Part shown: piece by piece, positions 18,478-24,768 of the stretch
Numbering within the stretch: the stretch's first letter is position 1
Layout: each line of letters opens with the position of its first letter
DNA from: a virus
Reading direction: 5' to 3' (one strand)
IMG/VR virus record: IMGVR_UViG_3300020469_000090
Location: 1-41,978 of that record
DNA: 41,978 nt
The notes under the pieces: model-generated
The model's database searches: none
The model's input: the letters and a program-made list of their open reading frames with translations, nothing else
Told to the model about the DNA's origin: nothing
Program-made: the position numbers and the translations under genes

Positions 18478-18953
18478 GTATCTTTACAGACGTAAAAGAC
18501 CTCGCATCAGGAGTAAAGCAGTCTAAACAATGGTATAGAGAGCAACTTCAGTATGGACTGGAGGAATATGCTGGTGCTTTTACCGTAGGTGATATAATCT
18601 TCTTTAACTATTCAGCACAGACACCAGACTTAAAGTGGTGGGATACCTTTCCTATGGTACTAATCACAGATGTAGACTATCAGAAACTGCAATTCTCTGG
18701 CGGGAATATGCATTATCTACGTCCAAACTCTCGTAAGAGTATGGCATCTACATGGTCTTCTGGTAGTATTTCATATCCTATGCGTTGCCATCATAAATAC
18801 TTTATGTCTAGTGTCACTAGTGCTTATAATGTACCTCAAGAAGAGTTGCGAGATATGACACCACTTCCAGTTGAACAGTTTGTTATAAGACCGAAAGGTT
18901 TAGGTAGGGTAATGGAAGTCCCTAGTAGTATAATTTGGAGTAGACTCAAATGA
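18474..18953 (+). CDS. Conserved virion-associated protein, unknown function
   Basis: A 159-aa protein. The pattern AFTVGDIIFFNYSAQTPDLKWWDTFPMVLITDV, then FSGGNMHYLRPNSRK, matches a conserved T4-like protein whose GD..FF.Y...P...D.FP...I......G.N.HYL blocks recur in myovirus tail or head-completion regions. I cannot assign a T4 gene number. It lies between gp4 and the gp54-like gene with 4-bp overlaps on both sides, which supports a role in neck or baseplate assembly. Confidence 0.6.
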   Translation: MSIFTDVKDLASGVKQSKQWYREQLQYGLEEYAGAFTVGDIIFFNYSAQTPDLKWWDTFPMVLITDVDYQKLQFSGGNMHYLRPNSRKSMASTWSSGSISYPMRCHHKYFMSSVTSAYNVPQEELRDMTPLPVEQFVIRPKGLGRVMEVPSSIIWSRLK

Positions 18954-19681
18954 GTGCTAATAGTTTTGATACCTTTAAGGAGCTGATAGTATCAGGTAAG
19001 AGAGAACCTGCTCGTTCTAACCTGTACGGTGTTAAGATATACTTACCACCATGTCTATATCAGAATATGCCTGAATTGAGGTCATCTAGGGATGTGCAGA
19101 TAGCAAATAATTATCTTGCTGACACTGTAACAGTACCTGGTAAGACTCTTACTGAAGCAACACATGATAATAGTTTTGGACAATCATTTAGATTAGCATC
19201 AGGTCAGCAGAGTAATAATGAATTGTCTGTAGAATTTGTCATGGACAAGAATTTGTTTCATCGTCAATTCTTTGAGAGATGGATGAATTATGCAGCACCA
19301 GACTCAGAACGGAGAGTTTCATTTTATGATGAGTATACTACTAATATAATGATAACTAAGTGGGAATTGGGATCCCCTGTTAATTGGACTGCTATAAGTG
19401 ATCAAGGTAGGGAGTATAGTCAAAGACTTAATAGTGTTACAGGAGTTTGGCAGTATTTCGCTTCATGGCCTAAGGATATGGCACAACTCACCTTTAATAA
19501 TGGTCCTACAAATTTAGTTAAGTTTGCTGTTAAATTTAATTACGAGAGATATAGATTCGATACAATTGGTGCTGACGAACTAGGAATAAACACCCCAGAT
19601 AGATATATTAACTCCTTCTCTGAGGGATTATCTTCGGTAGGACTTAGTGGTCAACCACAAGCAGCTCAATTTGGTGTCTAA
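18950..19681 (+). CDS. gp54: Baseplate tail-tube initiator, gp54-like
   Basis: A 243-aa protein with a tail-tube-type layout: TVTVPGKTLTEATHDNSFG, LSVEFVMDKNLFHRQFFERWMNY, RVSFYDEYTTNIMITKWE and TNLVKFAVKFNYERYRF. The P-G....G, F..W and Y.DEY.....I pattern is shared with gp19, gp48 and gp54. The position beside gp48/gp53 favours gp54 (T4: 320 aa), but a gp19-like tube protein paralogue cannot be excluded. The stop TAA is part of the late box at 19678. Confidence 0.65.
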   Translation: MSANSFDTFKELIVSGKREPARSNLYGVKIYLPPCLYQNMPELRSSRDVQIANNYLADTVTVPGKTLTEATHDNSFGQSFRLASGQQSNNELSVEFVMDKNLFHRQFFERWMNYAAPDSERRVSFYDEYTTNIMITKWELGSPVNWTAISDQGREYSQRLNSVTGVWQYFASWPKDMAQLTFNNGPTNLVKFAVKFNYERYRFDTIGADELGINTPDRYINSFSEGLSSVGLSGQPQAAQFGV

Positions 19682-19684
19682 ATA
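19678..19684 (+). promoter_or_regulatory. T4-type late promoter box CTAAATA
   Basis: It lies 29 bp before the gp26 start. Its TAA is the stop codon of the preceding gene. Confidence 0.6.
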
Positions 19685-19706
19685 GAAATATAATAATGCA
19701 ATCGTT

Positions 19707-20411
19707 ATGCCGTTACCTAAGTTAGCCATACCTGAGTATGAAGCGACCTTGCCTGTTACAGGTACTAAAATATCATATAGACCATTTCTAGTTAAGGAAG
19801 AGAAATTACTCTATCTTGCTATGGAGTCGCAAGACAATAAGCAGATGGTCAAAGCAGTGAAGACTATTATTAAAAACTGCACCAATTTAAAGTCTAAGGT
19901 TGAAGATCTCGCTACTTTCGAGATTGAATATATTTTCCTTAAGATCAGATCTGTTGCTGTTGGTGAGACAAGTGAATTTAAAGTCACATGTCCAGATGAT
20001 GAGAAGACCCAAGTTACTGTTAATATTCCTCTTGCAGATGTAGGAGTTGAAATACCAGAAGACCACAATGCTAAAATTCTATTAGATAGCAATGTTGGTG
20101 TGGTTATGAAGTATCCTTCATTGGATGTCTTTATTCAACAGAATCTTACTGATAACCCTAATATTGATGACATCTTTGAGTTAGCTGCTAGTTGTATTGG
20201 GCAGGTATATGACAAAGAAGAGGTTTATGATTCTTTCAGTAAGAAGGAAGCACTTGAATTTCTTGAGAATTTGAATTCTGAGCAGTTCCAGAAGGTGCAA
20301 GGTTTCTTTGAGACAATGCCTAAATTGTCTTATACGATAGAAGTCTTCAATCCTGAGACTAAAGTTAAGAGTGAAATGGTACTGGAAGGACTAGCAAGTT
20401 TTTTCGAGTAG
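19707..20411 (+). CDS. gp26: Baseplate hub protein gp26-like (chaperone-type)
   Basis: A 234-aa protein with the gp26 opening LP.......Y..TLPVTGTKISYRPFLVKEEKLLYLAMES, followed by FEIEYIFLKIRSVAVGE and, near the end, LSYTIEVFNPET. T4 gp26 is 208 aa and takes part in hub assembly. The last codons are AGT TTT TTC GAG TAG, which form a T-TTT-TTC slippery heptamer two codons before the stop. The downstream small gene is open in the -1 frame, so a fusion of about 298 aa is possible. Confidence 0.8.
   Translation: MPLPKLAIPEYEATLPVTGTKISYRPFLVKEEKLLYLAMESQDNKQMVKAVKTIIKNCTNLKSKVEDLATFEIEYIFLKIRSVAVGETSEFKVTCPDDEKTQVTVNIPLADVGVEIPEDHNAKILLDSNVGVVMKYPSLDVFIQQNLTDNPNIDDIFELAASCIGQVYDKEEVYDSFSKKEALEFLENLNSEQFQKVQGFFETMPKLSYTIEVFNPETKVKSEMVLEGLASFFE
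20399..20405 (+). other. Candidate -1 ribosomal frameshift site (T TTT TTC)
   Basis: Zero-frame codons TTT and TTC preceded by T match X-XXY-YYZ. After slipping back one base the codons are CGA GTA GCG TTA ATG, continuing into the 61-aa gene at 20417. The -1 frame is open from 20375 through 20602. Confidence 0.5.
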
Positions 20412-20416
20412 CGTTA

Positions 20417-20602
20417 ATGCATGACAGTCTTGAGAATTACTACAAGACTAACTTTGCGTTAATGCAACACCACAAATACTCTCTAACTGAGTTAGAAAAT
20501 ATGATACCGTGGGAACGTGATGTTTATGTGAATCTTCTTATTGCTCATATTCAAGAGGAAGAAAGGAGACAAAAACAAGAACAATCTGGTATGTCTTTAT
20601 GA
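20417..20602 (+). CDS. Small hub-assembly protein (gp51-like), possible C-terminal part of a gp26 fusion
   Basis: A 61-aa helical protein: LENYYKTNFALMQHHKYSLTELENMIPWERDVYVNLLIAH, then a charged QEEERRQKQEQ tail. The ENMIPWERDVYVNLL motif recurs in phage tail-assembly chaperones and in proteins annotated gp51 in cyanophages (from memory). No Shine-Dalgarno precedes the ATG at 20417, which fits translational coupling to gp26 or frameshift expression. It directly precedes the tape-measure-like genes, as the lambda GT chaperone does. The stop overlaps the next start. Confidence 0.6.
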   Translation: MHDSLENYYKTNFALMQHHKYSLTELENMIPWERDVYVNLLIAHIQEEERRQKQEQSGMSL

Positions 20603-22671
20603 CAATTAGAAGTTACGTTAAAATTAAACCATTAAAAGATGATGGTGCTTTTTCTGCAAATTTCAATGAAATCAGGAAGGGTATCAATCGTACTGGAGAA
20701 GTAGTAGAAAATATTGGTAGTAATTTAGTTGAGACACATAAACTAATAAGGTTTGAGAAAGAATGGTTAAGGGATGATCAGAAGAGAGAGGTAAAGGAAG
20801 ATAAGGTTGAGGCAAAGGAGAAACTTAGTACATTCCAAAAATGGTCTAAGGGATTCAAGAATATGTTCCGTCTCAAGCAAAGAGAGGAATTAGCTGAGGA
20901 TCCTAATGATAAACAAGAAGGTGATGAATTAGCACCAGAGGAAAGTGCAAAAGTTAAGGTAATGGGTAAAGCGATGGGCTGGTTGAAGTCTCTAGCTAAT
21001 TTTTTAATGCCTATATTTAAGTTTTTCCTACTAAGGGCAATGCTTAAGTGGTCATCAGATCCAGAGAATGCTAAGAGATTAAATAAAGTTTTTAGACTAG
21101 TAGTAGCTATAGGTAAGTTTGCATGGAATATTGGTAAATTTGGTGTAGGTCTTATTGTATCTGGACTTAATAATGTATTTGGTGCATTTGAGAATGGTGA
21201 TGGACCTATTAAGAAGGGATTTAGTTTCTTATTTGGTGCATTTAAACTATTTGCTGGTTTTAAGACTCTTCAATATCTATTGAATCCTCTTAAGATATTC
21301 ACTGATGGTAAGAGATTACTTGGACTATTCAATAATGTTAATGATAAGGAAGTAGAGTTTAAAAAGAATGAGCAGTGGCGTAAGTTTGGATATAAGGATA
21401 AGGAAACAGGTAAGATCTATACGGAGCAAGAATATAAGGCACAGAAGAAATCAGTAGAGAGACAACAGAGGAAGTTAAGAGCACAGGGTAAGAATGCACA
21501 AGCAGATAAGGTTGGGAAGGGTTTTAATAATAGGATAAAGAATCCTACCAGATTACAGAAGGGTAAGAATATAGGTAAAGGTTTAATGAAACCTGGTGCA
21601 CAGAAGGGTATTGCTGCTATTGGTGGTATAACTCGTATTGCATCAGGTATTGCAATGGGTGAGGATAAGACTACAGCAGTTGGTGCTGGTATTGGTCAGG
21701 CAGCAGGTGGTATGATAGGTGCTGCTGCTGGTACTGCATTATTGGGTCCATTCCTAGGTCCATTTGCACCTATTGTGGGTAATGCTATTGGTGGTTTCTT
21801 AGGTGAGTGGGTAGGTAAGACATTCTTACCAATGATTAAACCAATATTTGAACCTATCCAGAAGATGTTTAAGATGTTGGGCACAGTGGTTACTGACATT
21901 GCTGGACAGACTGGTATTACAGAATTCCTTGGCACATTCTTCCAGTTTGTAGGAGAGCTTGGTAAGGTATTATTTAATGTGCTTGGGTGGATAATGAAAC
22001 CAATAACGTGGTTGTTGGGTGGTGCAATTAAGGTACTTGGAGGTGTTATAGGTTTTATCATCAATTCTGCTAAGAAGATATGGGCAATAATATCAACGCC
22101 TGGTAAAGTAATAAGGCAGATTATATGGGATAGATCGTTAGAGAATGTAGGAAATGATATAGAACTTGAAGACGTTGGTAGCAATTCTGTTGGTGGACCT
22201 GTCAAGACTCCTGAGAAGAGGATGCGTGGTGGGATACTACCCATGAGGAAGGAACCAGATATAATTCAAAGGATGAGAGGTGGTTCTGTTGCCAATATTA
22301 CTAATAATAATATAGAGTATGCTGCTGGTGGTAAAGTTATTAAACAGATGTTTGCTACTGGTGGAGATGTTACGACTAATATTAGTAACACTGTTAACAA
22401 TACGAAAGAGAAATGGAATCCTACTGTTGGTAGGTTGAGTCGGACTATTCCTCAAGGACCAGACTTTGATATGCAATCAGTGAGTGATAAAAGAGATATG
22501 GTTATGAAGAGTATTCAAGAGAAGCAAAGGAGAGATACTCAGATGGATGACTTAATGATATTACCACCTAAACTTATTGTACAAAATAATACTCAGAAGG
22601 TAATAAATAATGTAGGTAGTGCTCCTGCCAAAGCAGTATATGTATCACCTAGTCCAATGTTTACCTGTTAA
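20599..22671 (+). CDS. Tape-measure-like tail protein A (paralogue pair)
   Basis: A 690-aa protein. It has a charged coiled-coil stretch at ~55-110 (KREVKEDKVEAKEKL), hydrophobic helices at ~132-195 (LMPIFKFFLLRAMLKW, VFRLVVAIGKFAWNIGKFGVGL), and a Gly/Ala-rich membrane-like block at ~363-420 ending in PMIKPIFEPIQKMFKMLG, then polar low-complexity C-terminus with GG-rich pieces (YAAGGKV, FATGGDV). Coiled coil plus hydrophobic segments fits a tape measure. In T4 the tape measure is gp29. The next gene is homologous. The start overlaps the previous stop. Confidence 0.65.
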   Translation: MTIRSYVKIKPLKDDGAFSANFNEIRKGINRTGEVVENIGSNLVETHKLIRFEKEWLRDDQKREVKEDKVEAKEKLSTFQKWSKGFKNMFRLKQREELAEDPNDKQEGDELAPEESAKVKVMGKAMGWLKSLANFLMPIFKFFLLRAMLKWSSDPENAKRLNKVFRLVVAIGKFAWNIGKFGVGLIVSGLNNVFGAFENGDGPIKKGFSFLFGAFKLFAGFKTLQYLLNPLKIFTDGKRLLGLFNNVNDKEVEFKKNEQWRKFGYKDKETGKIYTEQEYKAQKKSVERQQRKLRAQGKNAQADKVGKGFNNRIKNPTRLQKGKNIGKGLMKPGAQKGIAAIGGITRIASGIAMGEDKTTAVGAGIGQAAGGMIGAAAGTALLGPFLGPFAPIVGNAIGGFLGEWVGKTFLPMIKPIFEPIQKMFKMLGTVVTDIAGQTGITEFLGTFFQFVGELGKVLFNVLGWIMKPITWLLGGAIKVLGGVIGFIINSAKKIWAIISTPGKVIRQIIWDRSLENVGNDIELEDVGSNSVGGPVKTPEKRMRGGILPMRKEPDIIQRMRGGSVANITNNNIEYAAGGKVIKQMFATGGDVTTNISNTVNNTKEKWNPTVGRLSRTIPQGPDFDMQSVSDKRDMVMKSIQEKQRRDTQMDDLMILPPKLIVQNNTQKVINNVGSAPAKAVYVSPSPMFTC

Positions 22672-22674
22672 TAA

Positions 22675-24768
22675 ATGGCAGAAGTAAAAGCTAAGGTCAA
22701 TAAAGCAGTTGTTTATAAGATGATCTCTTATAAAGGGAAGACTGGTGCGAACAACTATACTCCTTTAACAGCAGCACAGAGATTACCTAAGCACGAGAGA
22801 AGTATATCTACAGGATTTACTACTCTTATTGCTGGTTTGAATGCACTTGGTGCTACTCTTAATAGTATTGCTAATAATGTGCAGAACATGTTAGAGTTCT
22901 GGAGAGATGCTATAAGCACCCAGATCAGAGGACAGACTGATGTATTAAAGCAAGAGAAGAAGACGGATGTACAGGAGAAGAAATTAGAGAAGAAGAAAGA
23001 GAAGCAGAAGTTTGATCAAAGGAAGCTAGGAGAGAGAGAAAAGGATATAGAGGCATTAAAACCTAAGAAAAAGAAGTTTAAATCTACCTTAGAGAAGAAG
23101 GAGACTAAGAAACCTTCATGGTTGCAAACTCTTTTTAATGCTTTAGGTACCTTGGTAACTATGGCAGTCCTCAAGGTTGTATCTGAGAACCCTGAGACTA
23201 TTAATAAGTTAGTTAAGGTAATACTTGCTATAGGATCATTTGCTGCTAAAGCTATTGAATTCCTTGGTGGTCTAGCACTTGATGGTATTATCGATTTCCT
23301 TGAGAATCCAATAAGTTTGAAAGGATTCTTTGGTATATTTAAGTTTCTACTTGGAGCAGTACCTTTATTTGCTGCATTTACCTTTCTAAAGAATCCTGCT
23401 GGATCTATTAAACTTGTTGGTAAGGTGATGGGTGGCATCATCAGTGGTCTCAAACGAATGTTTGGGATGAATAGTAAGGCAGATAAATTAAAACAATTCA
23501 AACTTAAGAAGTTGGGAGGACAGAAAGGTAACTTCTTTACTAGTAAAGCAGGTAAGATTGGTCTTGGTTTAGGTGCTGGATTTGCTACTGGTACAGCAAT
23601 TAAAGCTGCTGGAGGTACTAATGCTGAGGCAGTAGGCGGTGGTGTTGGAGCAGCAGGTGGTCAAATGGCAGGTGCAGCATTGGGTGCTGCTACTGGTATT
23701 CCAGGTATGGGTGTTGTTGGTGGTATGGTTGGTACCATGGCAGGTGGTGCTGTTGGTAAAGCGATAGGTCCTATGGTAGAACCGATCATTGAACCTATGA
23801 AAGAATGGTTTAGCATGGTTGGTAAGGTATTCAATGATGTATTAGCAGATATTAAGGAACCCCTAGAGGAATTCTTCACTACTCTTGGGAAGTTTATGAG
23901 TCAGATACTTGAAGTAGTAGAACCTCATCTACCAATGATTAGTAAGATAATCAGTGTAGGTCTACAAACAATGTTTGCACCTTTATTCTTAGGTATCAGA
24001 GCATTGACTGCGGTCATGAAATTATTTACAGGTGGGGACAAAAAGAAAGACGAGGATGTTAAACCTACTAAGGGTAAGATGGATGGTGGTAAGGTACCAC
24101 CTCTTGCTAAGGGTGGTTGGATAACTGGACCTCAGTCTGGATACCCAGTCTCAATGGATAGTGGTAAATCTATATCATTCATAGGACATGGTACTGAGTG
24201 GGTAGGTAGAAAGAGAGCGAGTGGTGGATTTGTTATACCATTTGATACTCCTGCTACTAGAACTAATAAGAGTCTAACTACTAGAAGATATAAAGAAGCA
24301 GCTAGAGGTGGATATACTTTACCAACTTATGCATGGGGTGGTAAATGGTTTAAGAATAAAGTAAGTCAGGTAAAGGATAGATTAGTTGATGAGCAGGGTA
24401 AACCAAAGGGTGCAATGGGATGGTTAGCTGGTGCTGCTGATCAGGCAACAGGAGGTTTCTTTGATTTTGATAAGCAAGGACATTCATTGTATCAAGCATC
24501 TGGGGTGCTTCAGAAGTCAGGTGATCTCATAGATAATCTTAAGCAGAAAAGAAATGAAGAAAGAAATAAGAGGTTGCAAGCTGCATTAGATGGTGCTCAA
24601 CCTACAGTAATTAATAATGAGTTGGATCCAATTAGTATGGGAGGTGGTACTCAAGATTCATTCCCAATTATAGTACCAAGTGATCATGACTTAGATCAAG
24701 ATAAGTATATAATGCCTAAGTTTGGTCTCATCGCTGAAATGAAAACAGATCCTGTGGAGTTAATGTAA
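22675..24768 (+). CDS. Tape-measure-like tail protein B (paralogue pair)
   Basis: A 697-aa protein homologous in layout to the preceding one: coiled coil at ~90-150 with many lysines and glutamates, hydrophobic helices at ~153-215 (LGTLVTMAVLKVVSENPETINKLVKVILAIGSF-type; the PEN/PET..NK-V...IG pattern is shared), and a Gly/Ala block at ~313-370 followed by PMVEPIIEPMKEWFSMVGKV. The C-terminal part has GGWITGPQSGYPVSMDSG, FIGHGTEWVGRKRASGG and PFDTPATR, a motif set I recall from cyanophage tail proteins. It starts 3 bp after the preceding stop. Confidence 0.65.
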   Translation: MAEVKAKVNKAVVYKMISYKGKTGANNYTPLTAAQRLPKHERSISTGFTTLIAGLNALGATLNSIANNVQNMLEFWRDAISTQIRGQTDVLKQEKKTDVQEKKLEKKKEKQKFDQRKLGEREKDIEALKPKKKKFKSTLEKKETKKPSWLQTLFNALGTLVTMAVLKVVSENPETINKLVKVILAIGSFAAKAIEFLGGLALDGIIDFLENPISLKGFFGIFKFLLGAVPLFAAFTFLKNPAGSIKLVGKVMGGIISGLKRMFGMNSKADKLKQFKLKKLGGQKGNFFTSKAGKIGLGLGAGFATGTAIKAAGGTNAEAVGGGVGAAGGQMAGAALGAATGIPGMGVVGGMVGTMAGGAVGKAIGPMVEPIIEPMKEWFSMVGKVFNDVLADIKEPLEEFFTTLGKFMSQILEVVEPHLPMISKIISVGLQTMFAPLFLGIRALTAVMKLFTGGDKKKDEDVKPTKGKMDGGKVPPLAKGGWITGPQSGYPVSMDSGKSISFIGHGTEWVGRKRASGGFVIPFDTPATRTNKSLTTRRYKEAARGGYTLPTYAWGGKWFKNKVSQVKDRLVDEQGKPKGAMGWLAGAADQATGGFFDFDKQGHSLYQASGVLQKSGDLIDNLKQKRNEERNKRLQAALDGAQPTVINNELDPISMGGGTQDSFPIIVPSDHDLDQDKYIMPKFGLIAEMKTDPVELM

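Follow-up and report, generated by a model that had tools for sequence, protein, structure and literature searches.

The question raised by this locus is whether gene gp26 of a cyanophage-like virus ends in a programmed −1 frameshift that joins its product to the 61 residues encoded just downstream, or whether it is followed by a small gene with a start codon of its own. The locus was analysed within a window of 41,978 nucleotides (the whole stretch of DNA), the source record of which is classed as a virus by IMG/VR. As judged from the nucleotide sequence and that of its relatives, programmed −1 frameshifting very probably yields two products here: a short gp26, similar to gpG of phage lambda, and a minority fusion of 298 amino acids, similar to gpGT.

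Gene content and order

The genes and reading frames of the locus, with the evidence for each, are as follows.

18950–19681, plus strand: tail tube protein gene, the upstream neighbour (PHROG 45 'tail tube', E = 1.6e-32)
19707–20411, plus strand: gp26, short tail assembly chaperone (TAC-N, lambda gpG-like), 234 aa (PF12322, PHROG 150, AlphaFold)
20405–20602, plus strand: −1-frame extension (T domain, gp51-like), 65 residues after the predicted slip (open −1 frame, profile matches)
20417–20602, plus strand: 61-aa ORF as defined by start codon, the ATG probably not being the true start (ATG conservation, predicted stem)
20599–22671, plus strand: tape-measure-like gene, 690 aa (PHROG 167 tape measure, E = 2.7e-7; better matches are labelled endolysin)
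22675–24768, plus strand: second tape-measure-like gene, 697 aa (PHROG 167 tape measure, E = 2.1e-12; better matches are labelled endolysin)

The gp26 protein matches the Pfam family T4_baseplate (PF12322) with an E value of 3.6e-68 (230 bits, curated cut-off 24.5) and the PHROG 150 baseplate hub profile with an E value of 9.9e-75. It is the sole PF12322 match within the 41,978-base record; this record is probably a genome fragment, and a second copy may therefore sit elsewhere in the genome, outside the record. The 61-aa ORF matches PHROG 634 ('baseplate hub assembly catalyst') with an E value of 2e-30. It has a second match at the C-terminus of PHROG 150 (E = 2.5e-5), suggesting fusion of the gp26 and T parts elsewhere among phages. 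The gene order is tail tube, gp26, T region and tape-measure-like genes, so that the gp26 locus is placed between the tail tube and tape-measure-like genes as in the G/GT chaperones.

The adjacent proteins of 690 and 697 aa both show weak matches to tape measure PHROGs and stronger ones to 'endolysin' PHROGs, and either could be the tape measure protein. The stop codon of the T region overlaps the ATG of the 690-aa gene (ATGA, 20599–20602); translation of this gene may therefore be coupled to frameshifted ribosomes.

Sequence of the gp26 junction

The 3′ end of gp26 reads GCA AGT TTT TTC GAG TAG, with a single sense codon (GAG) between the heptamer and the stop codon. The elements of the junction are listed below.

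20384–20390, plus strand: SD-like GGAAGGA, 8 nt 5′ of the heptamer, a possible stimulator (sequence)
20399–20405, plus strand: slippery heptamer T TTT TTC in zero-frame phase (sequence, conservation, codon constraint)
20409–20411, plus strand: gp26 zero-frame stop codon TAG, which a −1 shift would bypass (sequence)

The first-pass annotation had described a zero-frame T TTT TTC just before the gp26 stop codon, and it is present at 20399–20405. The −1 frame, described there as open from 20375 to 20602, is indeed open from 20375 to 20599 and closed by a stop codon at 20600–20602 (−34 to +191 around the gp26 stop). After the slip this frame begins R-V-A-L-M-H-D-S, in agreement with the RVAL and subsequent entry into the 61-aa ORF that had been proposed, and the predicted gp26–T fusion, previously put at about 298 aa, was computed to be 298 aa long. 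The peptide spanning the predicted fusion junction is ...ASFFRVALMHDS....

The heptamer alone is unremarkable, with five copies of TTTTTTC in the window against 6.8 expected by shuffling. This near-chance number is what would be expected if the heptamer and the open −1 frame were coincidental or functionless remnants. Of the five copies, however, only that at 20399 combines the slippery phase with a long open frame (241 codons from stop to stop) and an adjoining stop codon. A promoter scan of positions 19600–20700 found four promoter-like sites (3.9 expected, i.e. chance level), and the two terminator-like sites of the same region (0.6 expected) lie well to the 5′ side of the junction.

Conservation of the heptamer and of the −1 frame

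Related loci were collected as the best 80 of at least 597 relatives, a further 97 found with other queries (78 + 1 + 18), ten T4-type loci and 18 stretches from named phage records, giving 205 loci plus the window. The 15 T4-type loci were set aside beforehand, and four of the remaining 191 (L139, L160, L161 and L176, fragments without a gp26 stop codon) were dropped. The resulting 187 loci comprise 85 of cyanophage type (window included), 81 more distant and 21 Ackermannviridae-like loci.

An in-phase TTTTTT followed by C (150 loci), T (15) or G (1) is present in all 166 of the collected loci outside the Ackermannviridae-like group, window included; from the slip on, the −1 frame is open in every one of them. 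These loci include duplicates; 143 of the junctions are distinct over 150 nt. Not one of the Ackermannviridae-like loci, 21 in number and 14 of them distinct over 120 nt, has the heptamer; these are treated separately below. The check proposed in the first-pass annotation, conservation of the heptamer and of the −1 frame in relatives, thus gave a positive answer for both outside that group. The signals are kept at gp26 identities down to 23–27% (RL38J1, 23.1%; Vibrio D486, 25.6%; Acidovorax, 26.7%; Stenotrophomonas, 27.2%). The cultured cyanophages P-TIM40, P-HM1 and S-SM2 also retain the site. In the related-locus scan, no relatives were returned with gp26 of Vibrio D486 as the query, and gp26 of Acidovorax ACP17 returned nothing beyond one record that was 100% identical. 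The signals for frameshifting at this locus are unusually well conserved.

Codon-level constraint

Codon identity was scored over 233 alignment columns of 84 distinct cyanophage-type gp26 genes. A value of 100% is confined to the Phe pair within the heptamer, the next-best columns reaching 95% and 93%. Elsewhere in these genes Phe is encoded by TTT 992 times versus 536 times by TTC. The codon preceding the Phe pair ends in T at all 143 distinct junctions, and the residues encoded by this T-ending codon are Ser, Ala, Asn, Asp, Thr, Gly and His. Constraint on the protein alone does not predict this pattern.

Conservation over such highly diverged phages, with constraint at the level of codons, is difficult to reconcile with coincidence or with remnants devoid of function, and this explanation is scarcely credible. 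A chance origin of the heptamer and of the −1 frame is ruled out by the 166/166 conservation together with the codon constraint, barring a fault in the framing of the loci. The SD-like GGAAGGA was considered separately as a stimulator. Its Glu and Gly codons show no constraint beyond the protein level (excess of 0.03 and −0.16, respectively), and an SD-type stimulator is therefore not claimed.

Predicted RNA structure downstream of the heptamer

Folding of the sequence 3′ of the heptamer predicted one structured element.

20411–20465, plus strand: predicted RNA structure, putatively frameshift-stimulating, 5-nt spacer after the heptamer (folding, family-wide signal)

In the predicted fold, an outer stem of 11 bp pairs 20411–20421 with 20455–20465 and contains the ATG at 20417, and an inner helix pairs 20426–20434 with 20440–20449. 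For the 77 nt of the window that start at the heptamer, the minimum free energy is −24.2 kcal mol−1 (z = −5.07), and none of 200 shuffles was as stable. Over 129 distinct loci the mean folding z just 3′ of the heptamer is −2.33, whereas 20 further offsets within 300 nt gave values between −0.90 and +0.29. Against a synonymous-codon null the mean z is −1.95, with z below −2 in 72 of 133 loci; the corresponding values for a control segment in gp26 are −0.26 and six of 133. Dinucleotide shuffles of 65 nt (134 loci) gave a mean z of −1.80, with z below −2 in 49 loci and above 0 in 15. The mean pairing probability of the 5′ arm rises from 0.28 at nucleotide 5 to 0.53 at nucleotide 6 after the heptamer. 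Two relatives, L003 and L005, lack the fold (z = +0.9 and +0.4, respectively).

Base-pair counts were made over 13 relatives, in which helix 1 is paired in 79% of cells and helix 2 in 88%. Five pairs are changed on both sides, a number reached by no shuffle and by one slid control; in its variety of pair types the structure does not exceed the shuffles, 380 out of 500 of which show as many. The pair evidence is thus mixed and the covariation support for the predicted structure is modest. The outer stem is in part a consequence of two stretches that code for ALM. Inspection by eye of 46 loci and of the 40 strongest revealed no single family-wide fold; the folds differ by clade. The folding predictions suggest that the downstream structure may stimulate the slip. 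A conserved RNA structure at this place may be new: no paper on one at the site was among those listed by literature searches in which RNA structure was not itself a criterion.

The folding signal also bears on whether the two frames could be joined in the mRNA, by RNA polymerase slipping on the T run and producing transcripts with an extra U. Polymerase slippage on homopolymers is known, the run here comprises six T, and it is extended to TTTTTTT in 15 of the 166 loci. Transcriptional slippage usually needs runs of nine or more, for which six T is short, and the run ends in C or G in 151 loci. Moreover, all 166 loci hold the heptamer in one and the same codon phase, and the folding signal sits at the spacing expected for ribosomes. 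Polymerase slippage needs neither phase nor spacing, and these two features therefore argue against it; we regard it as very improbable.

Origin of the 61-residue ORF

Programmed frameshifting must also be weighed against a separate gene 51, in which the 61-aa ORF would be translated by re-initiation at the ATG at 20417 after termination at 20411. This ATG lies 5 nt past the gp26 stop, a separate small gene is annotated here in public records (S-SM2, P-HM1, phiN3 and Vibrio D486), and the stop and start codons overlap as TAATG in Vibrio D486 and TCU-VP04-AIR2. Start-type codons (ATG, GTG or TTG) were counted within the first ten post-slip codons of 141 distinct loci. Such a codon occurs at 104 loci (ATG at 86) and is missing from the other 37; a start with an SD core in reach is found at seven, and an ATG at the place of 20417 in the window at ten. 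The −1 frame, on the other hand, is conserved from the slip onwards and ahead of this ATG, with Arg at position 1 in 114 loci, Leu or Met at position 4 in 138, His at position 6 in 131 and Leu at position 9 in 135 of the 141. The zero frame past the slip is variable or stopped, unlike the −1 frame, and in seven of the 141 loci the slip is the very point at which the −1 frame opens. The invariance of the heptamer codons and the burial of the ATG at 20417 in a strong predicted stem also speak against a separate gene.

Because the ATG is kept at ten of 141 loci while the −1-frame residues before it are conserved, the 61-aa ORF is probably a −1-frame extension of gp26 and not an independent gene. 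Initiation at 20417 was rejected as the main route on the start-codon counts, and re-initiation without a frameshift is, on all of this evidence, an improbable account of the locus. What the first-pass annotation had called a 61-aa gene is accordingly better described as an extension without a start codon of its own. The same correction applies to the separate gp51-like gene annotated behind gp26 in public cyanophage records, for example those of S-SM2 and P-HM1. In the record of Acidovorax phage ACP17 the −1 frame beyond the heptamer encodes a T domain (L081:3761–3920) that is absent from the annotation. No joined gp26 feature was flagged in 13 stretches of non-T4-type named records.

Structural model of gp26

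An AlphaFold model of gp26 calculated from an alignment of 26 sequences has a mean pLDDT of 85.5; the single-sequence model was poor (pLDDT 37). No solved structure was matched significantly by this model using Foldseek, in which the best relevant hit was the HK97 tail assembly chaperone at ranks 2 and 7 (E = 0.49 and 1.1, respectively). When 780 of the Foldseek candidates were re-aligned, the HK97 chaperone (PDB entry 2ob9) ranked first, with a Z score of 7.5 and an r.m.s.d. of 4.0 over 83 residues, the alignment covering residues 1–85 of the gp26 model. The second match was YqbN (PDB entry 3klu; Z = 7.1), which we take to be chaperone-like itself, and the next had a Z score of 4.9. With Z below 8, the similarity of the gp26 model to the HK97 chaperone gives moderate support to a chaperone fold. 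Sequence searches of the solved structures with T4 gp51 and with gp26 of the window returned nothing at E values up to 1.

Relation to T4 gp26 and gp51

Both gp26 (208 aa) and gp51 (249 aa) of T4 belong to PF12322 (215.6 and 177.5 bits, respectively), and of the two only gp51 matches PHROG 634. The aligned fusion (146 loci) was compared with the gp51 family by pairwise hhalign, which gave a probability of 99.6 and an E value of 9.6e-24 over most of the length; the T part alone matched the C-terminus of T4 gp51 with a probability of 95 and an E value of 3e-8. The gp51 side of these alignments consisted of 12 rows, one of which (L204) was truncated at 120 aa. In this locus (L204:1501–1860) the T4-type gp51 frame stops after 120 aa and the tblastn match spans query residues 1–247; the stop is possibly a sequencing error or the mark of a broken gene.

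The T4 proteins thus share the PF12322 family with gp26 of the window, and the C-terminal extension of gp51 matches the −1 frame of the window. T4 differs in having two separate genes on opposite strands, and the end of its gene 26 is without a heptamer, whereas in the window the T region lies in the −1 frame of gp26 itself. Since both T4 proteins belong to PF12322 and gp51 carries the T extension, T4 has the short and long forms as two genes, its gp26 and gp51 being paralogs that look like these forms. Genes 26 and 51 are annotated back to back in T4 and in Aeromonas phage 31, and the same layout is found in SFHK24 and PhT2-v2, in which both genes are labelled 'baseplate hub'. The divergent 26/51 layout was not seen in the stretch of RB43 that was examined.

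The Ackermannviridae-like loci

The Ackermannviridae-like loci (L087:4757–4962, L098, L178–L195 and L096) have a T domain in the −1 frame without a TTTTTT heptamer; the family is therefore not everywhere dependent on the heptamer. Their T region matches the T family with an E value of 5e-8, and no direct match to the C-terminus of T4 gp51 was obtained (probability 2%). The junction of the 20 loci other than L096 reads ATT TTC AT(T/C) TAA, and the bases that follow are strongly conserved. In L192–L194 an ATG overlaps the stop codon (TAATG) where the other loci of this group have ATT. From these sequences, re-initiation or a single-codon slip is possible at this junction. Neither Maynard nor IME250 has its T region annotated.

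Proposed mechanism

What is observed here are the signals in the sequence and how well they are kept, the homology with both T4 proteins, gp26 and gp51, and the order of the genes; the slip itself, its frequency, any help from the stem and the partners of the two products are inferred, as follows. Most ribosomes would stop at 20411 and release gp26 as the short chaperone. A minority would slip back by one base on T TTT TTC (20399–20405), probably aided by the RNA stem that starts about 5 nt past the heptamer, and would then read the −1 frame to 20602 to give the 298-aa gp26–T fusion. By analogy with lambda, the short form would coat the tape measure protein and the T domain of the fusion would recruit tail tube subunits.

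On balance we lean towards a wider reading for the cyanophages and other T4-like phages that keep the heptamer. In these, what is annotated as gp51, 'baseplate hub assembly catalyst', would be solely the frameshifted end of gp26, and the ratio of the two forms would be set by an RNA structure that evolves fast in sequence and keeps its place some 5 nt past a near-invariant UUUUUUC. T4 would presumably have replaced this control by its paralogs 26 and 51.

Comparison with known systems

The slippery sequence of lambda is GGGAAAG, which differs from the TTTTTTC of the window. The G/GT analogy drawn in the first-pass annotation is supported by the order of tail tube, gp26, T and tape-measure-like genes, and moderately by the HK97-chaperone-like model. 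The abstract of Vladimirov, Gautam and Davidson (Virology 566:9–15, 2022) reportedly names genes 26 and 51 of T4 and describes frameshifting as conserved in several T4-like groups. Lambda, according to a 2016 review, makes a short chaperone and a minority −1 fusion that binds the tape measure protein (PMC5009743). The same review describes the G–T frameshift as conserved among long-tailed phages, 'except T4' (PMC5009743); the T4 relatives collected here bear on this exception, in that they keep the frameshift signals.

The paper on phage Adele credits Vladimirov et al. (2022) with polyT slippery sequences in T4-like TAC-N genes (PMC12846349), and the PRFect paper cites the same work for T4-like phages with a short gene and a long fusion gene (PMC10885494). 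As these two papers describe them, the T4-like TAC-N/TAC-NC genes of Vladimirov et al. (2022) are of the same kind as gp26 of the window. Adele (Vandenendeviridae, Pakpunavirus) resembles the present locus in its conserved poly-T slippery motif and in a −1 frame that is open ahead of the tape measure gene, and the paper makes the same comparative-genomics argument; it differs in belonging to another phage family and in its motif, GTTTTT (PMC12846349). Frameshift-made chaperones in T4-like phages are thus already in print, and the locus described here is a well-supported further case. The present analysis contributes the invariance of the heptamer codons, the lack of start codons and a predicted, position-specific RNA structure, the last of which makes the ratio of the two forms open to a simple reporter assay.
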